NCBI GenBank assembly: GCA_903842345.1 | Contig: CAIMLR010000023.1 | Location: 1-64,000, forward strand | Length of the DNA: 64,000 nucleotides | Direction of reading: 5' to 3' | Source: an uncultured Myxococcales bacterium | GTDB lineage: Bacteria > Myxococcota_A > UBA9042 | Part shown: positions 1-9,642 of the stretch, in pieces | Layout: the number at the start of each line of letters is the position of its first letter | How positions within the stretch are numbered: the stretch's first letter is position 1 | Program-made: the position numbers and the translations under genes | The notes under the pieces: model-generated | The model's input: the letters and a program-made list of their open reading frames with translations, nothing else | Databases searched by the model: none | What the model was told of the DNA's origin: nothing

Positions 1-136
1 ATGTCCTCCAGCTCCGGCCGGACGGTGTCAGGGATGAACAGTGGCAGCGGCGATGGACCTGTTTTGCGCATGCACTGAAGATCTCACGGGATCTATCAGG
101 CGGCAAGAATGCGGTGCGGACTTCGGGCTTGGCGTA

Positions 137-1306
137 CTAGGGTTCCCACCGAGGGCTTCTTCGGAACCCAGAACGCGGCAAAGGCAACATAGGTCGGCCA
201 GCGCCGGGGTGCCACGACTTTGTGCCTCCCGGCGAGATTCCATTGGGGGTTATTGGCTTTCCAAGGCGCCCCGTCGCCATGGCTGAGTGCCCTCCTTCCG
301 AGGCATTAGGTGCGCGACCGCGCTTGGCGACGTCCAACCTCAACGTCGCCACGTTGCTCGAATTAGCGGCTGCCGAGCGGCCCGGGCAGGCCTCGATACA
401 TCTGCTTCGGTAGGGCGAAAGGTACGGTGCTTGAGGTTCGCGTTGCGGCAGAAGTCTTTGGTCGACAGCAAGCCGATGAAGCATCTCGCCCGACCGACCA
501 CCGAGCCTGTACAAGGTCCAGAGCACGTCGTGCAGTTCCTGCGGCGAGAACGTGAGACGTTGACCCACGGGGACGGCTTTTTCGACTGGATCTTCGAGCC
601 GAACGTCCAAGGTGTCGACCGCCCGCATCTCCTCTGCCGTGTTGTCATCGAATTCGCCGGAAGTGCCGTCCGAGTACTTCGCGAAGATGACCATCCGGGC
701 CCATCGACATGCCATCACTTCGCCGCCTGGCCCGGCGTCCTGTCGGCCAACGACGCCGCCGCGATGGACGTAGCAGTTTCGCATTGCGTTGATGGATTGT
801 GCGCACAGTTCGAGGTCGGCCAGCACCTCCTCGTTCGGAAGTCCGAGCGTATGCAGTTCAGCAAACTTTTCGGGCAAGCCGAGCTTGTGAAAGTGCTTCA
901 CTGCGGAAGGGGACAACAAGCCCGTGCGCCAAACTTCTGGATCTGGCGTGGTCGTTCCGCCAGCGAGCAGCACCACGATAGGGCGAATAGACTCCAAGTG
1001 CTGATTGACCCAAGTGATCGCGTCGGTCAGCGAATGGCGCACAAGCCAGATGCGGCTGAGAGTCTTGACGGCCGGAGTCGGCAACGGCGCGCTGAGCGCC
1101 ATGTTCTTCGCGGTCCCGGGCATCAGCGTTTGGCCAAATGTGCCGATCGAAAAGAGCGTGTCGCGCCCCAGCGATACCGACTGAGAATCCGGGAACCCGT
1201 CGACCGCGGTCAGCGTCAGGGTGACGAATTCGAGAATGCGCTGGAGCCCGGCGTGGAACCCAGCCATCGGCCGAGAAATGTCAAGGTAGTAGTGACCTGG
1301 TTCCAT
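137..1306 (-). CDS. HEPN-like protein, putative RNase component of a defence locus
   Basis: This 389-residue protein has no close family that I recognise. A helical segment contains an Arg-x4-His motif (R176 NCYV H181, followed by RGG), the arrangement typical of HEPN ribonucleases of toxin-antitoxin and antiphage systems, so RNA cleavage is a reasonable but unproven role. I chose the ATG at 1306 because AGAGGA lies just upstream; the open frame runs further up to 1588 but that stretch is Arg-rich and looks non-coding. The last ~100 residues (from about 285) are Pro/Arg/Ser-rich and do not look like a folded domain, so the true C-terminus may be earlier or disturbed by a frameshift. It is divergent from the nuclease-STAND gene and lies in the same putative island. 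Confidence 0.5.
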   Translation of the reverse strand: MEPGHYYLDISRPMAGFHAGLQRILEFVTLTLTAVDGFPDSQSVSLGRDTLFSIGTFGQTLMPGTAKNMALSAPLPTPAVKTLSRIWLVRHSLTDAITWVNQHLESIRPIVVLLAGGTTTPDPEVWRTGLLSPSAVKHFHKLGLPEKFAELHTLGLPNEEVLADLELCAQSINAMRNCYVHRGGVVGRQDAGPGGEVMACRWARMVIFAKYSDGTSGEFDDNTAEEMRAVDTLDVRLEDPVEKAVPVGQRLTFSPQELHDVLWTLYRLGGRSGEMLHRLAVDQRLLPQREPQAPYLSPYRSRCIEACPGRSAAANSSNVATLRLDVAKRGRAPNASEGGHSAMATGRLGKPITPNGISPGGTKSWHPGAGRPMLPLPRSGFRRSPRWEP

Positions 1307-1599
1307 GTGCAATCCTCTGCGTCTTAAACGCTTCAGGTCTCGACGCGATTCACACGACTGGCTGCGATGGCAGAAGCGCGAAAGCCACGACGGTATTGAC
1401 CGCACATCCACAGGCTGGATACTTCGTCGGTCGCAGTGGCGGCATCGCCAGCGCCCCCGACTTCGGTTGCGCTGCGACCCTCTCGCGTGCAATTGGCTTC
1501 TGAGGATCCTATGGCGAGTCTCCTGTTGAGCGCAGCGTTTACGTCTTCTCGTCTGCCTCAGGTCCGGCTCGGTGATCGGCCGATGCATTGGCCGGCAGT
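1307..1599. other. Divergent intergenic region between HEPN-like and STAND genes
   Basis: About 290 bases lie between the two divergent start codons. Both promoters should be here, but I see no convincing -35/-10 pair or palindromic operator. The open frames that cross it on both strands are arginine-rich and look non-coding. Confidence 0.4.
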
Positions 1600-4512
1600 A
1601 TGAATCCAGTCAGCGCATCCCAGTTGGCGCGCATCGAGGCCGTGCACAGCGGATTCCTCTTCCAGCATCTCGTCGCGGTCGCGTGCATCCTGGAGACCCC
1701 GAATTCTGGCGCATCGGGGGTGGCCGTTGAGGTCGACGAGGATGTTGAGTGGTTGTTCCCTGACGAAACGATTTACATTCAAGTGAAATTCCGGACCACG
1801 AAACTGAAACCGTCGGATATTGAAAGCACTCTTCGGAGATTTGCGCGGATTAAGGCCGAGCATGAATCCGGGACTCGGAGCGGAGTCGCACGGTTTTTCA
1901 TTTTTACCAACTCTTCGCCTGGACCTGGCCTGAGCGACCTGCTGCAACGTCAGGAATGGTCAGGGTTGGCGACGCTTTGGTGGCCAACCAATGAAAACAA
2001 TTCCCATCGACTTCCACCGGCATGGCCGGACATCGAAGCCGCGTTTTCCTGGTGTTCGGCACGAGCCGAAGCAATACCATTTCGATTGGTCCCGGCGGAT
2101 TCATTGGTGCTGATTCTTGCTGGTGAGGTGCTCCGAGCAAGCTCGGGTTCGTCAGGCAGAAATCGACATCTGTTCACTGCGGCATCTCTTCCGAATCTGC
2201 TCCGACAGATTCAAGACCGTTTGTCGCGAGTCCCAATTCCGCCGGACTGTTATTACCCACATAGCGAGGAACCGCTTTTTGCTAGCTCGCGAATCCAGCT
2301 GATTTCGGCTATTTCCGGAGCAGGCAAGAGTTCTTGGGCGGCGTACGGGAGTCTTCACGCGTCCACGCCGGTTGTTTGGATCGACATCTCAGAGGTGCCC
2401 GCCGAGATCCTGGCATCGGTTGTGGCGCGCGAGGTCGCGGCGACGGTCCTTACCGATGAAGCGGCGACAGCGGCGGCCGTCGCCAAGGCATACGCGCCTG
2501 GTTTGACAGGGATTCAGTCGATTCGTTCGGTTGATGATGTTCTCTTCGATCGAGGAATTGAAGTACGCGTCGTTCTCGACAACGCGCATCTGGCCGACGT
2601 TGAGACCCTGCGCTACTGTGTGGAAATGTCTCGCGCGATCACATGGACGTTACTTGTCCAGCCTTGGGCTGGACAAGTAGAGTTCACGGCTAGAGCTGGT
2701 GGACGGGTTGAAACTCTATCTGGCTGGTCATTGGAGACGACCGCGCGATTTCTAGCGGATCAGGAGCTTACCCAGAATCCGGTCACAATCCAGTCCGTGC
2801 TCGGGATTACTGGGGGGCTTCCTCTCTTCGTTCGCAGCATCGCGGCATTGGCGAAAGATCTTTATGCCGGCGACATCGCAAACTTGTGCCGGGCGCTCGA
2901 TGACGGCATGCACTCAGTGGAAATCGCACAAGAGCGAGTACTTGCCCGCACAGCCAATTCGCTTTCGACTGACGCCCGGACAGCTGCCGCAGTCTTGAGT
3001 CTGTGCAAAATTCCCACGCCCCCCGATGTTGCCCAAGACGCAATCTCGAGGTGCCTAGCTGATACGCACGGACGCAGAGCGTTCATCGCCGTCCGCGAAC
3101 TTCATGGGCGCGGACTGCTTACGGCGCGGCACAGTGAATTGATTAGTCTTCATGACTCCTTCCGCCTAACTGCCGTAGATGAACTCGCGAAATTGCCCGA
3201 GGAGTGTGTCGCTGCATCTCGAATCGTCTTGGTCGACTGGCTTCGTAGGACGGCCAGCAGTCCCGCATCATTTCTGGCGTTCTTGGAACTGCTCATCCCG
3301 AGCGGACGCGCCGATGAACTCATCGGATATGCTGCCGGCGGTGATGAAGTCGCCCGCGAGCTAGGCCTTGGGGACAGTCTGCGCCGGCTGCTCGAAAAGG
3401 CAGTCCAGTTGACCAGCATTTCTCCCCGCGTCCGATTCGCCGGACTTGATGTACTGGCGACGCTCAACTGTGCGGACGGCTCGCAAGCCCGCGTTTCGGA
3501 GATCGCGGAGCAGATGTCCAAATTGATGAATGAGTGTGATAACGATGAAGATCCAAATGTGAGCGATCAAGATTTCAGAGCAAGATTGTTGAATGTTCGC
3601 ATGTTGGCGTGCCTTCCAAACGACTGGCAGAAGGCGCAAGAACTAATCGTTGAGGCACGCAGTACGCTCGCCGATCTCCCCAAGCAGCTTCAGGATGAGT
3701 GGTTTCGGGTTTTGAAGTACAACTTGTCTCTCGCGCTCAATTCCGGTGGGCGCTTCCGGGAAGCCGAAATCGTTGCCAATGGTGTCGCGCAGGAGTATTA
3801 TGTTGCTTTGAAAATAGACCCGGACGAAGCGATATTCTGGAACATTCCAGATGTGGAAGAGCGAGTCTTACCGATACCCGACTGGCGCAGGCTGCTCACG
3901 GCACTCGCGAGCGCGCTCGAAGTTGTCGGCGAAGCGCGGCAAGCGCTAGGAATTTCCCCAACAATGTCGTTCCTGGAAGCGACGAGGTTCTTCACGGCGG
4001 CGAACTCCATCGTCTCTGCTGTACGTGTTGGATTGCTTGCGGTCGCGGAGATGGTTGATGCCGGGCTGCCAAGAGTCTCGATGGAGCTCTTCGATGAACT
4101 TCTGCTTCCTGCGATTGAGGACCCGCAACTTGCCGACCAAATTGTGCCGGTGAGATCCATGTACGCAATCGCTCTCGCTCATTCAGGGGCGCTAAGTTCG
4201 GCACGCGAACAATTGGCACGGCTAGCGACACTAACGCCGGTCTCTGAACATGAGAGCTCCGGTCTGCGGCAAGCAATTAATATTGTCGATGGAATCACGC
4301 GAGGTGACATGCAAGAAGCGACTATGCAAGATATGGACTTCAGGCACGGTTGGTCGTACGCCGACTTTGACGAACCGCTCACCAGTCGAAATGAATTGTG
4401 CGAATGCGGCAGTGGCATCACGTTCAAGAAGTGTCATGGTCGCCCAAATGCTCGGTGTCTCTGCAACAGCGGCAAGAAATACAAGCGGTGCTGCATGGGA
4501 GCGACAGACTGA
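1600..4512 (+). CDS. Cap4-like nuclease / STAND-like NTPase with C-terminal tandem SEC-C motifs
   Basis: This 970-residue protein reads as a sensor-effector of the Avs/STAND type. The N-terminus (about 15-105) looks like a Cap4/DUF4297-type nuclease: H16-SGFLFQ, then E44, D46, D48 and Q61-V-K63. The NTPase has a P-loop (SAISGAGKSS, 236-245), a Walker-B-like strand ending in D327 (VRVVLDNAH) and a GGLP motif at 405-408. Residues ~430-900 are helical and TPR-like, suitable for ligand sensing. The tail carries two adjacent SEC-C zinc motifs (C934, C936, C945/H946; then C953, C955, C964/C965). Start: ATG 1600; an in-frame TTG at 1588 is possible. Base composition looks lower in GC than the backbone genes. 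Neighbours are HEPN-like and CHAT-like genes. Antiphage function is inferred from domains only. Confidence 0.75.
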   Translation: MNPVSASQLARIEAVHSGFLFQHLVAVACILETPNSGASGVAVEVDEDVEWLFPDETIYIQVKFRTTKLKPSDIESTLRRFARIKAEHESGTRSGVARFFIFTNSSPGPGLSDLLQRQEWSGLATLWWPTNENNSHRLPPAWPDIEAAFSWCSARAEAIPFRLVPADSLVLILAGEVLRASSGSSGRNRHLFTAASLPNLLRQIQDRLSRVPIPPDCYYPHSEEPLFASSRIQLISAISGAGKSSWAAYGSLHASTPVVWIDISEVPAEILASVVAREVAATVLTDEAATAAAVAKAYAPGLTGIQSIRSVDDVLFDRGIEVRVVLDNAHLADVETLRYCVEMSRAITWTLLVQPWAGQVEFTARAGGRVETLSGWSLETTARFLADQELTQNPVTIQSVLGITGGLPLFVRSIAALAKDLYAGDIANLCRALDDGMHSVEIAQERVLARTANSLSTDARTAAAVLSLCKIPTPPDVAQDAISRCLADTHGRRAFIAVRELHGRGLLTARHSELISLHDSFRLTAVDELAKLPEECVAASRIVLVDWLRRTASSPASFLAFLELLIPSGRADELIGYAAGGDEVARELGLGDSLRRLLEKAVQLTSISPRVRFAGLDVLATLNCADGSQARVSEIAEQMSKLMNECDNDEDPNVSDQDFRARLLNVRMLACLPNDWQKAQELIVEARSTLADLPKQLQDEWFRVLKYNLSLALNSGGRFREAEIVANGVAQEYYVALKIDPDEAIFWNIPDVEERVLPIPDWRRLLTALASALEVVGEARQALGISPTMSFLEATRFFTAANSIVSAVRVGLLAVAEMVDAGLPRVSMELFDELLLPAIEDPQLADQIVPVRSMYAIALAHSGALSSAREQLARLATLTPVSEHESSGLRQAINIVDGITRGDMQEATMQDMDFRHGWSYADFDEPLTSRNELCECGSGITFKKCHGRPNARCLCNSGKKYKRCCMGATD

Positions 4513-4622
4513 AACGAAGACATCGCTTCCTCCTTGGCGGATCTGGCCCATGTGGGGAATTGCCATCGGCCGCTTGCCGTGGGCATTCATGCGACCGCCT
4601 CGGGGCAACTGTGACCTGACAC

Positions 4623-5339
4623 TTACACGTCTTTCTGTGTGGCCGGTTTGAAGTGCCAGTACTTCTTGCCATCCCACCGGTGGTACCGCAGGTCGCCCAG
4701 TGCGAGCGCGTGGATGGCGGTGACCAACGCCCTCATGGTGGCCCCGTCTTCGACCCTCAATTCGGGAATCTTGTTGTAAAGAATCGCCCAGGTGAGCGCG
4801 GCGTCGGACCAGGCAACTGTTGCGGCGAACGAGAAGATGTACACGGGATGGATCTTGCCCGCGAACATCGAGGTAAGGTTGTTCGCGGTTGGTCCGCCAC
4901 AGGCAGAGACCGTTAGCACAAAAGGAATGTCCTTCTTGCCGACAGAATCGGTGATCGTTGCCGCAAGGTGGGTCCAAGACAACCGTTTGCCGCCGATATT
5001 CACACCGGCGTCGTTTCCATGGCAACTGAGGTGCAACACGAATTGCGGTTTCAGCTTGGCGTCTTCGGCTGGCAGCCACGTGCCAAAAATGTACCGAAGA
5101 TTCTCTTGGAACTGCTCTGGATTCGTTGGCCGAAACGGAACAAACCGGTGACCTGAGAGCCGACAGGCCGCTTCGACCAGCGGAGCCTCCTCGACACCCT
5201 GGCCAAGCTCGGACGATCGCGGCGATTCGAAGTGGAAGACTGTCAGCTGCCCAAACGACGTTTTGGCAGTCAGGAAGTGGCGCAACAGCGCAAGTGTCTC
5301 GGGGCTGATTTGGGGCGCGGTGGACGTGTTGCTTGGCAT
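4623..5339 (-). CDS. CHAT/caspase-like cysteine protease
   Basis: The 238-residue protein consists almost entirely of a caspase-fold (CHAT-like) domain. The catalytic dyad is visible: H107 in the hydrophobic context VLHLSCHGN and C147 in VLTVSACGG, each at the end of a predicted beta strand as in caspases and CHAT proteases. No other domain, signal peptide or membrane segment is seen. The start ATG (5339) is preceded by GGGAG. It converges on the nuclease-STAND gene with about 110 bases between them. CHAT proteases in bacterial immunity cleave partner proteins on activation (for example with Gasdermin or type III-E CRISPR); a similar role here, perhaps downstream of the STAND protein, is an inference from position. 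Confidence 0.7.
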   Translation of the reverse strand: MPSNTSTAPQISPETLALLRHFLTAKTSFGQLTVFHFESPRSSELGQGVEEAPLVEAACRLSGHRFVPFRPTNPEQFQENLRYIFGTWLPAEDAKLKPQFVLHLSCHGNDAGVNIGGKRLSWTHLAATITDSVGKKDIPFVLTVSACGGPTANNLTSMFAGKIHPVYIFSFAATVAWSDAALTWAILYNKIPELRVEDGATMRALVTAIHALALGDLRYHRWDGKKYWHFKPATQKDV

Positions 5340-5638
5340 GTTCTCTCCCGTTCCCAGAGTGGGGCTGTGCAGTAGATTCCGATGGGCGACGGTCAGTCAA
5401 GGGCTCGCTGCGGGAATACCCGACGCGTCGTCGCTTCGGCGGCCTTCGCCAAAGTCGAGGTGCCCGAGTCAAAAAGCGATCCCAATTTCGCGCAGTCGCG
5501 GTAGACTGCGCGTGTTCTAGGGCAGGTTCTAGGGCAGCCCTAGAACGGAGAGGAAAAACGTTACGGGAGCGAGACGCGACGATGCATAACATCCAGAAAT
5601 CATTGGAAAGAGTGGTCGCCGCGAGGCCGGCTCGCTGT
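5340..5638. other. Non-coding region upstream of the CHAT gene, left of the tRNA-Gly fragment
   Basis: About 300 bases hold no gene I can support. They contain the 10-bp palindrome and direct copy described separately, and presumably the CHAT promoter. A 22-codon ATG frame at 5582 runs into the tRNA fragment and is probably not translated. Confidence 0.4.
5514..5546. repeat. Ten-base palindrome with an extra direct copy (GTTCTAGGGC)
   Basis: GTTCTAGGGC occurs at 5514-5523 and again at 5526-5535, and its perfect inverse GCCCTAGAAC follows at 5537-5546 after one base. The layout resembles an operator or recombinase/excisionase arm site. It is about 90 bases left of the tRNA-Gly fragment and 175 bases upstream of the CHAT start. 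Its role is unknown. Confidence 0.7.
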
Positions 5639-5683
5639 TTCCCAAGCTGAATGTTGCGGGTTCGAGTCCCGTTTCCCGCTCCA
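5639..5683 (+). tRNA. tRNA-Gly(CCC) 3' fragment, putative attachment site
   Basis: The segment matches the 3' part of a bacterial tRNA-Gly with anticodon CCC. It has an anticodon loop TTCCCAA (5639-5645), the 3' anticodon-stem side, the T-arm GCGGG-TTCGAGT-CCCGT (5656-5672), the acceptor 3' strand TTCCCGC (5673-5679), a discriminator T and an encoded CCA (5681-5683). The bases upstream do not supply a matching acceptor 5' strand, D-arm or well-paired anticodon stem, so the gene is incomplete. A lone 3' tRNA end is the usual scar of a tyrosine-recombinase element that inserted into the tRNA gene. By that logic the intact tRNA should lie left of the window and the element should lie left of this site. 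Confidence 0.75.
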
Positions 5684-5717
5684 TGTAATCCTTCAAGAAT
5701 GTGTTTTTCAGAGGGCT

Positions 5718-5763
5718 CTGGGGGTCACAAAACCGCCCTGGGGGTCACACTGGGGGGCACAAA
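5718..5763 (+). repeat. Three short direct repeats CTGGGGGTCACA, integrase-arm-like
   Basis: CTGGGGGTCACA occurs at 5718-5729 and 5738-5749, and a close variant CTGGGGGGCACA at 5750-5761. The start-to-start spacings are 20 and 12 bases. They begin 35 bases right of the tRNA-Gly fragment. Short directly repeated boxes next to a tRNA core often bind the arm-binding domain of an integrase, which would place a second element on this side. Confidence 0.6.
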
Positions 5764-5860
5764 CCTCCAAAGCCCTCGCGCCCGCTCGTAGATTCCACGC
5801 GTCTTGCGCCGTTTCGGTCGGGTCTGCGTGTGGGGCGGCGCCGCATCAGAAGGTACCTGC

Positions 5861-5950
5861 ATGGCAACCGTCGCGATCGTTCTGGCGATTCTCGCGTTCG
5901 CAACTGGCGTGGCATTTGGGGCGCGCTACCGGTTCGCCTTCATGCCGTAG
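5861..5950 (+). CDS. Small single-span membrane peptide
   Basis: This 29-codon frame has an ATG 7 bases after AGAAGG. It encodes a short hydrophobic helix (Ala/Val/Ile/Leu/Phe, residues ~3-20) followed by GARYRF and a short tail, so the basic residues flank the membrane segment. It sits between the integrase-arm-like repeats and the AlpA-like gene in presumed mobile DNA. I recognise no family. Similar tiny membrane peptides include type I toxins, phage superinfection-exclusion peptides and small regulators. It may also be a chance open frame. Confidence 0.4.
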   Translation: MATVAIVLAILAFATGVAFGARYRFAFMP

Positions 5951-6046
5951 AAGCACTGGTGCTGGGCGCCCCACCAGAAGACGAGGGCACCGCTGCGGTC
6001 GGGCGCCCGAGCCGTCCTTGTCGCCGTCACGCTTGAATCTCACCCG

Positions 6047-6253
6047 TCAGGCGTCGGCCAGCACCGGCACCCGACAAGGCGGCCGCGACGCGATCCACTC
6101 CTCGACTTCGCCGCGGACCCAGCCGACGGCGCGCGTGCTGAGTTGCCGGTGGACCGGAAAGCGTCGGGCGTTCTCCAGCTGGAAGAGGGTCGACCTGGAC
6201 AGACCGGTGAGCGCGCAGACAGCGGGCAAACGAATGATCGTGATGGCTTGCAT
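6047..6253 (-). CDS. AlpA-like excisionase/transcriptional regulator
   Basis: The 68-residue protein is an AlpA/MerR-like winged helix-turn-helix. It starts IIRLPAVCALTGLSRSTLF, which is the recognition helix-turn-helix pattern of the family, then RRFP, then AVGWVRGEVEEWIASR, the usual closing motif. AlpA-like proteins control integrase or excision functions in P4-type islands and prophages. I chose ATG 6253 because GGAGGA lies 5 bases before it; the longer frame to 6418 looks non-coding. It is divergent from the STAND-like gene at 6417 with 163 bases between. No integrase gene is found nearby, so it is orphaned or its partner lies outside the window. Confidence 0.8.
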   Translation of the reverse strand: MQAITIIRLPAVCALTGLSRSTLFQLENARRFPVHRQLSTRAVGWVRGEVEEWIASRPPCRVPVLADA

Positions 6254-6416
6254 GGGTCCTCCAAGCCCTCGACTCCCGAAGCGCAGCTTGCGGATTGTGG
6301 CGCGCGCTGCAGGCACTGAAGACGAAGTCGTGACAGACCGGCGCGGCCGGGCCGAGGGATTGAGCCCGCGCGGCAAAAGTTGCATCCTCCGCCGTGGTCT
6401 TCCTGGAGGCGCAGCC

Positions 6417-8294
6417 ATGACCGACGAGTTGCTGGAGAATTACTGGACCTCATCCGATTTCCTGTTCATCGACGATCCGTTCCTCGGCCGAAGCGCCGAA
6501 ACGGCCATCGTTAAATCCGCCATGCGCACGCCAGGTACGTTGACCGTGCTGTCTGGTCCGCACGGCATCGGCAAGGCCGCGATCATCGGTGACGTCCAAC
6601 TGGGCGACAGCTGGGGGCGAGGCAACGGCGAACGACTGCGGCACACGGTCGTGCACCTGGAAGGCGGCATGGGCGGTGTCGGCGACAGCGTGCGGCGCTA
6701 CTTCCAGAAGCACGAACTGCCCGTGCCAGCGATCCCGACCTCGGAGAGTTTTGCCCGCGCTTTCGAGGAGCACCTGCAGGAACAGAACGTGGTCATCGTC
6801 GTGACGGACGTCACCATGGCGGAGATGCTCGCGGGGCGGGTGCCGATCGTCCGCGGCAAGGCGTGCACGTTCCTGACGACCCGCGATTGTGGGATGGCGG
6901 CCTGGCTGGCCGCGCAAGGGCATCGCGATGTGCAGCATCTTGAGATAGGACCGCTCGCGGACGCGGACTTGGCCGATCTGGATGAGCGCAGCCGGGACGC
7001 GCGCGACGAGCCTGTGCCTCGGGCGACAGCGAACCTCATTCACTGCGCGTTGCTGGCCGGCGGCTATCCGTGGAGCATTCGCGTGCTGATGCGGATCATG
7101 GAGCCCGATGAGGAAGGCGGCGTGGTGGATATCGCCGGCTTGAGCAGGCGTCTGGCCGCCGTGACCGACAAGTGCGACGCCGACGGTGTGCCGCTGTCCG
7201 CGCGCGTGGTTGCGGAGTTCGCCGCAGCGCAACTAACGCCGCTGGCCCGCCGCGTGTTGGCCTGGTGGGTGGCTTCCGGCTTGCCGCTGACGTCCTGGCG
7301 TTGGACCGATGACGACGAGGAGGAGGCGTACGACCTCATCCATGCCTGGGGATTGGCGGAAGACTCGGACGTGGGCCTGCATCCGGCCGTCACGGCTGTC
7401 GTGCGCGGCTGGCCCGAGTATCGCCTCGCCATCGCCGCGGCCACGGCCGTCGACTTGATCCGGCACGTCCGCGAGGCGGAGATTCCCGACTACGGGTTTT
7501 CGTACTTCGACTGGCCCCACTTCCACCATGCTTTGTCCATGCTGCTGGAGCGCGGCCAGCTCGACGTCGCGGCGCGGGTGCTGCGGGTGTTCTGGCTCCA
7601 CTATGCCAAAGCCGGCTTGCAAGAATGGCTGGTCGACTGGAGCACGCGTCTTTTGCCGCGACTCTCGCCCGGTCGCGACACAGCCGGCTTGCGCGCGTGG
7701 CTCGGCAAGACGCACCTGACGCTGCAGCGGCCGGATCTCGCGCTAGGTCACCTGCGCCGCGCGATTGCCGAACTGCAGGCGCTGCCGCCGGAGGAGCTGG
7801 GTTCGTCCTGCTATCACGACGCCAGGCGGGTCGCGCAGGACGGTCGTGTGCGCAGGGTCGTGCCACCGGTCGAGCTGGACGACATCGATTACCTGGAGCG
7901 CATCGACTTTGGCCAGTTTGCCGAGCTGGAGTGGTCCGCCCAGCAGGCCGATGCGGCGCTGGACTATGCCTACGACTACGCCGACCGCTTCTTGCCCAAC
8001 GACGACATGCTGACGATCGCCCGCGTCGACCACGCTTTGGCGCAAGCAGAACTGGGCGAGACAGCGCGCAGCTGCCGGGAAATCTCGTTGATTCTGGCGG
8101 ATATTCGCCGCATCACGCTGCACGAATGGCGGGTGCGGACGCTGAAGAGCGCGGCGCAGATCGCGGCGGCAGCGGGCGAGGACGTGTTGGCGCAGCAGTT
8201 GTCCGCGGAAGCCGCTGCCGTGCGATTGCTCCAGCGACCCTTGGTAGAGGCTTCAGAAGCAGCGGCCGTTGTCGAACCGGCATCGGGCGTCTGA
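6417..8294 (+). CDS. STAND-like ATPase with helical C-terminal region
   Basis: The 625-residue protein resembles signal-transducing ATPases of the LuxR/AfsR/NB-ARC kind but has no DNA-binding domain. The P-loop GPHGIGKA (47-54) lacks the usual Ser/Thr after the lysine, which may weaken nucleotide binding. A Walker-B-like strand VVIVVTD ends at D131, and a GGYPWSIR motif (~215) corresponds to the GxP motif. Residues ~330-610 are helical and TPR-like. The ATG at 6417 follows GGAGG by 7 bases; the frame upstream is Arg/Pro-rich and unlikely to be coding. The neighbours are an AlpA-like regulator (divergent) and a nucleotidyltransferase 100 bases downstream. Accessory or defence function is an inference. 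Confidence 0.65.
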   Translation: MTDELLENYWTSSDFLFIDDPFLGRSAETAIVKSAMRTPGTLTVLSGPHGIGKAAIIGDVQLGDSWGRGNGERLRHTVVHLEGGMGGVGDSVRRYFQKHELPVPAIPTSESFARAFEEHLQEQNVVIVVTDVTMAEMLAGRVPIVRGKACTFLTTRDCGMAAWLAAQGHRDVQHLEIGPLADADLADLDERSRDARDEPVPRATANLIHCALLAGGYPWSIRVLMRIMEPDEEGGVVDIAGLSRRLAAVTDKCDADGVPLSARVVAEFAAAQLTPLARRVLAWWVASGLPLTSWRWTDDDEEEAYDLIHAWGLAEDSDVGLHPAVTAVVRGWPEYRLAIAAATAVDLIRHVREAEIPDYGFSYFDWPHFHHALSMLLERGQLDVAARVLRVFWLHYAKAGLQEWLVDWSTRLLPRLSPGRDTAGLRAWLGKTHLTLQRPDLALGHLRRAIAELQALPPEELGSSCYHDARRVAQDGRVRRVVPPVELDDIDYLERIDFGQFAELEWSAQQADAALDYAYDYADRFLPNDDMLTIARVDHALAQAELGETARSCREISLILADIRRITLHEWRVRTLKSAAQIAAAAGEDVLAQQLSAEAAAVRLLQRPLVEASEAAAVVEPASGV

Positions 8295-8355
8295 CACTTC
8301 GGGACAGGCTCGCACCCGTCCGGATTGCATCGCACTTGACGCCTTTTACCAAGCG

Positions 8356-8389
8356 CTTACCCTCTATGTTCGTTCTCATAGAGGGTAAG
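8356..8389 (+). promoter_or_regulatory. Perfect 13-bp inverted repeat overlapping the ribosome binding site
   Basis: CTTACCCTCTATG (8356-8368) is mirrored exactly by CATAGAGGGTAAG (8377-8389) across an 8-base spacer. The right arm contains GAGGG, the only plausible Shine-Dalgarno for the ATG at 8394. It could be an operator for autoregulation or, if transcribed, a hairpin that hides the ribosome binding site. No T-run follows, so it is not a terminator. Confidence 0.8.
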
Positions 8390-8393
8390 ATTC

Positions 8394-9440
8394 ATGCCAC
8401 CCCTGTTTCTTCGTCACGAACCCGCCTTGGTCACGCTGCTGGCCGACGTCGAACAAACCGCGGAATCGCTGCGGCCTCTGCCGGTTGGCTCGCCAGGCGC
8501 GGTCACCGAACGCTCCAAAAGCGGCAACGCCTACTGGTACCGCCAGTTCTACGACGCCGCTGGCCACAAACGCGACGAATACCTCGGTCCCGTCGGCGAT
8601 GCGGCAGGCGATGCGCGCCAAAATGAGGCACTCGCGTGGATCGCCGCTGCCCGCGCCTTGGGTGGCAGCGTTCGTGTGCTCCGCCGTGCCGGATTTCCAG
8701 CCGTCGATGGGCGTACTGCCGCCACGCTGGCCAGCCTCGCCAATGCTGGCATTTTTGCGGCCGGAGCTGTTCTGGTCGGCTCGCACGCATTCGGTGCGCT
8801 GTGCGGTGCGCTGGGGCTGCGGGTCGCACAGTACCGGACCGAGGATGTGGACGTGGCGCGGCCCTACCGCCTGCAGCTGTCGGCGGATGTGTCGACGCTG
8901 GGTCTGGCCGCGCTGTTGGCACGCACGGGCATACCGTTCGTGGAAGTTCCGTCCATCGATCCCCGTCAGCCGGCGGTGTCGCTCAAGCCGCCCGGTGCCG
9001 ATCGCCTGCGCGTGGACCTGCTGATGCCTGGCAAGACATACGGCATCGCGCCAGTGGCCGAGCTGGGGTTCGCCGCGCAGACGCTGCCGCAACTGGACTT
9101 CCTCATCGCGCACCCGCAGCGCGGCGTGGTGCTGGGTCCTGACTTGGCGATTCCGCTGCTGGTGCCGTCGCCGGAGCGGTTCGCCTGGCACAAAGTCCGG
9201 ACGTCCATCCAGCCCGACCGTACGCCGGCCAAAGTGGCCAAGGACATGGCGCAGGCGCGCGTGTTACTTGCGGCGTTGGCGGAGCGCGATCCGTCGTCGC
9301 TGGAGGCTGCGCTGGGCGAGCTGCCGCGTCGCGAGCAGAAGCGGATCCTGGGGCGGATCCGGGTGGATCTGCCGGCCTTCGCTGCACATCGCGAGGCACG
9401 CGCGTGGCTGGGAGACCTGTGCAAACCGTCAACAGAGTAG
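8394..9440 (+). CDS. Nucleotidyltransferase, NTP_transf_8 (GSLTP-type) family
   Basis: The 348-residue protein has the layout of NTP_transf_8 proteins. An N-terminal module contains AYWYRQFYDAAGHKRDEYLGP-like sequence (about 46-66), followed by a nucleotidyltransferase fold with GSHAF (129-133, the GS motif) and TEDVDVA with D151 and D153 as metal ligands. A further Asp lies in RLRVDLL. The C-terminal ~100 residues are helical. The substrate is unknown for the family; related minimal nucleotidyltransferases act as tRNA- or protein-modifying enzymes or antitoxins. The start is fixed by the SD inside the inverted repeat. It follows the STAND-like gene by 100 bases, and no obvious toxin or antitoxin partner adjoins it. 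Confidence 0.75.
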   Translation: MPPLFLRHEPALVTLLADVEQTAESLRPLPVGSPGAVTERSKSGNAYWYRQFYDAAGHKRDEYLGPVGDAAGDARQNEALAWIAAARALGGSVRVLRRAGFPAVDGRTAATLASLANAGIFAAGAVLVGSHAFGALCGALGLRVAQYRTEDVDVARPYRLQLSADVSTLGLAALLARTGIPFVEVPSIDPRQPAVSLKPPGADRLRVDLLMPGKTYGIAPVAELGFAAQTLPQLDFLIAHPQRGVVLGPDLAIPLLVPSPERFAWHKVRTSIQPDRTPAKVAKDMAQARVLLAALAERDPSSLEAALGELPRREQKRILGRIRVDLPAFAAHREARAWLGDLCKPSTE

Positions 9441-9642
9441 CCTTCCTGCCGACGAATCAGCGCGAACAGCTAAGATCTTGCCTCTTGAGCTGAGGAAGAA
9501 AGAGCAGACTGGCGTCGCTGCAAAGCCGGCCAACGTGCATGGCCCACGTGCTCGCGACGCCCGCAGCGTGGCCGAACATCGCCAGTTCGCCACAGCCACT
9601 GGGGTGTCGGCGGCGGCGAGCGCGCGGCCAACCAGCGAGGCA

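Follow-up and report, generated by a model that had tools for sequence, protein, structure and literature searches.

The stretch of DNA that was analysed (64,000 nucleotides, referred to here as the window) forms the start of contig C23 in a 5.85-Mb genome. Three open reading frames between positions 137 and 5339 had been singled out as a candidate defence locus, and all three were present there: a HEPN-like gene, a large sensor gene from which it diverges, and a CHAT gene that is convergent with the sensor gene and separated from it by 110 bp; these orientations were as originally predicted. The GC content of the left 5.7 kb was 56-63%, compared to 67% for the remainder of the window. No match was obtained in an Rfam scan of positions 1-9500, and the output of a promoter and terminator scan was at chance level.

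Genes of the locus

The sensor gene (1600..4512, + strand) most likely starts at the ATG codon at position 1600; the TTG codon at 1588 is only the start of the longest open reading frame. The 970-aa product comprises a predicted nuclease domain (residues 1-135), a STAND P-loop NTPase (residues ~196-455), a winged-helix-like segment, TPR-like repeats (residues ~531-905) and a SEC-C tail in two copies. Numbered from this ATG, the proposed nuclease residues E44, D46, D48, Q61 and K63 were confirmed, within the motif E44-x-D46-E47-D48 ... Q61-x-K63 (1729..1788, + strand). The P-loop reads SGAGKS (S239-S244; 2314..2331, + strand), with a Walker B-like D327-N328 pair downstream of it (2578-2583, + strand).

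In contrast to the original prediction, which placed its ends at 1588 and 137, the HEPN-like gene was found to start at about 1306, with the conserved part of the protein reaching to near 425 (425..1306, - strand); the tail of the open reading frame down to 137 was unconserved in a congener. The R-x4-H motif of this protein (RNCYVH; RNCxVH) was kept without change in three homologues, the most divergent of them 27% identical, but the Pfam search gave no supporting HMM match and a profile search of the PDB gave no meaningful match. The R-x4-6-H motif of HEPN proteins is present, and the protein is termed HEPN-like on account of this conserved motif only.

The CHAT gene (4623..5339, - strand) encodes a stand-alone, protease-like protein of 238 aa. 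No family was matched in a Pfam search at E values up to 10. His107 and Cys147, the predicted dyad, were retained in three divergent homologues, and a structure model (pLDDT 74, pTM 0.76) matched caspase-7 and the SAVED-CHAT protein 8tl0. As judged from this model, the product has a caspase-like fold with a His-Cys dyad, in agreement with the protease call.

The sensor and its family

Full-length relatives of the sensor, approximately 30% identical to it, were found in 53 plasmid records and 129 genome-contig stretches; the latter came from an alignment-based scan, a query with the single sensor sequence, which yields lineage-specific patterns, having found nothing. Relatives were present in 64 of 5426 E. 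coli genomes, where nearly all were chromosomal, and were patchy in the phylum of the window (2/379 genomes). The window sensor forms the longest branch of the family tree (1.84 vs a median of 0.23).

E44, D46, D48, Q61 and K63 were invariant in 74 non-redundant relatives, and the nuclease and P-loop residues were likewise conserved in the set of 75 non-redundant family members; the genome-contig relatives were fetched with patterns containing the nuclease and P-loop motifs, so that the invariance among them arises partly by selection. Nine of the relatives, full-length plasmid homologues, were found by tblastn without motif bias (~30% identity), and these retained E44, D46, E47, D48, E50, Y59, Q61, K63 and R65 as well as the P-loop, SGxGK(S/T), and D327-N328. 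Among the relatives, conservation was 47% in the nuclease and lower, at 38%, in the TPR part; between the relatives and the window sensor the corresponding values were 40% and 23%. A lower value is expected of the sensing half of such a protein.

The spacing of D48, Q61 and K63 (D-x12-Q-x-K) is identical to that of D40, Q53 and K55 in DUF4297, the residues altered in a nuclease-defective triple mutant (PMC11291478). In PADLOC searches the N-terminus matched LmuA (E = 5.7e-9, residues 13-112) and HamA (E = 0.001), and the NCBIfam DUF4297 model NF042945 gave a sub-threshold score of 10.6 bits against a cut-off of 300. The comparison of sequences thereby places the likeness of the putative nuclease to DUF4297 at the domain level only. 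None of the PADLOC 2.0 Avs models matched the sensor at E values up to 1, nor did the Pfam NACHT or NB-ARC models. SEC-C was the only Pfam match, as had been proposed for the tail (PF02810, two copies, E = 5.2e-13; two C-x-C motifs at 4387..4512, + strand), yet it was absent from 23 of the 75 family members and appears from this distribution to be an optional accessory tail.

An AlphaFold model of the sensor, built from 63 aligned sequences (pLDDT 86, pTM 0.72), consisted in order of a mixed alpha/beta N-terminus, a P-loop core, a winged-helix-like segment and approximately 375 residues of paired TPR-like helices, which bore out the P-loop and TPR-like regions of the original prediction. The top PDB match in Foldseek was Avs3 bound to phage terminase (E = 1.5e-14, probability 1.0), with a low TM-score and a large rmsd over the full length; because TM-scores were low, the match is read as a likeness of domains and their order and not as a whole-chain superposition. 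The next matches were the STAND protein PH0952, CED-4, MalT, ORC/Cdc6 proteins and plant NLRs, and HamA of Hachiman was also matched.

The neighbours of sensor genes were compared with PADLOC models. The 120 near neighbours matched 204 PADLOC families, whereas 43 control ORFs matched three; the control set was small, and both types among its three families were housekeeping-like. Neighbours matched the mad2, AbiH, LmuB, IetS, GajA/B and methyltransferase models, and the family thus sits among Gabija, Lamassu, IetS, AbiH, MADS and restriction-modification (R-M) genes. At the two E. coli chromosomal loci that were read, the sensor gene lay within an integrase-bearing element beside hipA; at one it adjoined a GajA/GajB pair (Gabija), and at the other it stood alone with no adjacent defence gene. 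A Peptidase_C92 (YiiX/NlpC-P60-like) gene adjoined the sensor gene at eight loci, mostly alphaproteobacterial (L003, L037, L050, L053, L059, L071, L072 and L086), and was upstream in 7/8; this pair, which is not present at the window locus, is possibly a two-gene variant of the family.

The occurrence of MalT and PH0952 among the fold and profile matches would fit a STAND protein without an immune role, for example a housekeeping factor or a regulator like MalT. This reading is quite improbable given the patchy distribution in the phylum, the plasmid and island locations, the defence neighbours and the invariant nuclease motif. An even less probable alternative is that the sensor mainly degrades incoming plasmids or other mobile DNA and not phage. 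The family is often plasmid-borne and this type of nuclease is non-specific in DUF4297-HerA (PMC11291478), but the Avs-like build suggests protein-triggered activation, and carriage on plasmids itself speaks against a general anti-plasmid action.

The tRNA-Gly island and the relationship between the three genes

A 4.03-kb block (1484..5515) holds the sensor and CHAT genes and is located at the terminus of a tRNA-Gly(CCC) integration site. Positions 5638..5683 (+ strand) are an exact 3' half of tRNA-Gly(CCC), a duplicate of the att site, and the intact tRNA gene was located on contig C42 (G000:C42:39286-39360), where it neighbours a uvrA-like gene and lies 3.7 kb from a tyrosine integrase; a join between C42 and C23 is inferred. 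In genome G001 the intact tRNA-Gly continues directly into sequence 94.7% like window positions 5684-5771, which identifies the right side as the native flank and the left side as the element. Just outside the att fragment, the window encodes a second P-loop/TPR-like protein with a weak AAA_16 match (5916-8294, + strand; true start probably MTDELLENYW...), which is adjoined by a predicted nucleotidyltransferase-like ORF (8394-9440, + strand). An AlpA-like excisionase/regulator gene (6047-6418, - strand; Pfam E = 9e-18) lies beside the att fragment and points away from it, possibly left over from another element.

The end of the element (5515-5683), including its subterminal part (5516..5637), recurred in genomes G001, G003 and G004 with different cargo beside it: an IetS-like gene broken across two frames in G001, a multi-ubiquitin/E2 fusion followed by a ThiF-JAB protein in G003 (L139 3327-6256), which is a ubiquitin-like defence operon, and the HEPN-like gene in the congener G004. 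The tRNA-Gly(CCC) site is therefore a hotspot of defence cargo with a conserved element terminus (L124, L132, L135 and L138-L140). Together with the neighbours of the sensor family, this location agrees with the proposal that the region is a defence locus.

The further suggestion that the three genes form one system was not borne out by the co-occurrence check proposed along with it. They are physically adjacent in this one genome, but no CHAT or HEPN-like relative was found near any of approximately 90 sensor loci examined by tblastn with both proteins and by Pfam analysis of the neighbours. In G004, window segments 445-1483 and 5516-5683 are adjacent, so that the flanks of the 4.03-kb block are joined and the HEPN-like gene lies directly against the tRNA-Gly fragment; the sensor and CHAT genes are missing. 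The congener G006 carries a 73% CHAT homologue beside tRNA-Thr, with neither a sensor nor a HEPN-like gene, and in G135, a genome from the phylum of the window, the sensor occurs with no relative of either partner. The HEPN-like, sensor and CHAT genes also constitute three transcription units. With the partners absent from the sensor loci and each gene found apart from the others, a three-gene unit was rejected, and a single system of this kind is barely credible.

Searches of viral contigs for relatives of the CHAT and HEPN-like proteins found none, and neither did plasmid tblastn searches with these proteins. In G006, a protein of 457 aa that has a coiled coil and, at its C-terminus, transmembrane helices (L115 16787-18160, - strand) is encoded divergently from the CHAT homologue, and the two are possibly a substrate/effector pair.

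A small residual chance was left for a two-gene cassette in which the CHAT protease serves as a second effector, switched on by the STAND sensor or by the product of its nuclease. The two genes share the single block, which is missing from G004 as one piece, and they are only 110 bp apart. However, the approximately 90 other sensor loci offered no CHAT relative, G006 has the CHAT gene and no sensor, a third CHAT relative adjoins a type I R-M methyltransferase gene in G332, and the convergent orientation implies that sensor and CHAT are not co-transcribed. A bolder version, to which slightly less weight is given, is that the sensor represents an undescribed and widespread single-gene nuclease-STAND class that has here captured a stand-alone CHAT protein as second effector in a 4-kb cassette; if true, DNA-cutting and protein-cutting arms would be placed under one sensor. 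The best reading of the combination is a chance neighbourhood within the hotspot, with the HEPN-like and CHAT genes each carried independently in the one tRNA-Gly-integrated island.

Proposed function and comparison with known systems

The sensor is probably a compact, single-gene, Avs-like nuclease-STAND immune receptor that cuts double-stranded DNA on detection of phage, with the CHAT and HEPN-like genes as cargo independent of it. The analysis itself documents how the sensor is built, which of its residues are conserved, what folds it resembles, that it is mobile and that it keeps company with defence genes. Counted in favour of the model were the LmuA, HamA and DUF4297 profile matches, the invariance of D48, Q61 and K63 and the top match to Avs3, together with the stand-alone E. 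coli homologues, the Gabija neighbour, plasmid carriage, the PADLOC matches of near neighbours relative to control ORFs, the empty site in G004, the lack of CHAT and HEPN-like genes at sensor loci and the lower conservation of the TPR half. The low TM-score and large rmsd against Avs3, the lack of a PADLOC Avs match and the use of motif-selected relatives were counted against it.

In the proposed mechanism, which we infer by analogy, the resting sensor would be monomeric and inactive, with ATP or ADP bound, and its TPR-like C-terminal half would bind a phage protein; for the nuclease-bearing Avs1-4, the triggers described are terminase, portal or another phage protein (PMC12931631). Binding would lead to oligomerisation through the P-loop NTPase of the STAND module, as the likeness to Avs3 and NLRs suggests. 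Following work on DUF4297 and Avs, oligomerisation would pair the N-terminal Cap4/DUF4297-type PD-(D/E)XK domains into active dimers, and these would cut double-stranded DNA, so that phage DNA and perhaps host DNA would be destroyed and the infection ended, presumably with an abortive outcome. The SEC-C zinc knuckle, as an optional tail, probably aids protein or nucleic-acid binding.

PADLOC 2.0 has no name for the sensor family, and a literature search turned up no paper joining SEC-C with phage defence. DefensePredictor validated 13 PD-(D/E)XK systems in E. coli (PMC13092281), and that set may include this family. Members of the family, ~970 aa long and 30% identical, occur in Proteobacteria and, more sporadically, in other phyla; clinical plasmids and 64 complete E. 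coli genomes are among their carriers. The full-length single-gene E. coli homologues, such as WP_447312420.1 and WP_001543765.1, make the family easy to test, and it could serve as a minimal model of phage sensing by STAND nucleases. The locus also illustrates that effector folds, even three of them in adjacent genes of an island, do not necessarily belong to a single system.

Among known systems, the CHAT model matches both SAVED-CHAT proteases and caspases but, unlike SAVED-CHAT, the window protein has no SAVED domain and no TPR or N-terminal fusion. LmuA of Lamassu gave the best PADLOC match to the sensor nuclease, over ~100 residues only, and in contrast to Lamassu the 4-kb block carries no LmuB SMC-like gene. 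The Cap4/DUF4297 nucleases (CBASS Cap4 and HerA-DUF4297) share the spacing of the catalytic motif and a weak profile similarity; unlike these, the sensor nuclease is fused to a STAND-TPR module, and no HerA or CD-NTase partner was seen at the locus. The effector-STAND-repeat logic is that of bNACHT and NLR-like receptors, with plant NLRs and CED-4 among the structural matches, although these receptors differ in that the sensor lacks a Pfam NACHT or NB-ARC match. The closest comparison is with Avs (AVAST) proteins, especially Avs3 (PDB 8dgc), which has the same order of N-terminal nuclease, STAND NTPase and C-terminal helical-repeat sensor; Avs3 has 2028 residues compared to ~970 aa in the window sensor, which in addition carries SEC-C. 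Since this tripartite order was found but no Avs profile was matched, the sensor is not filed as Avs and is described as Avs-like.
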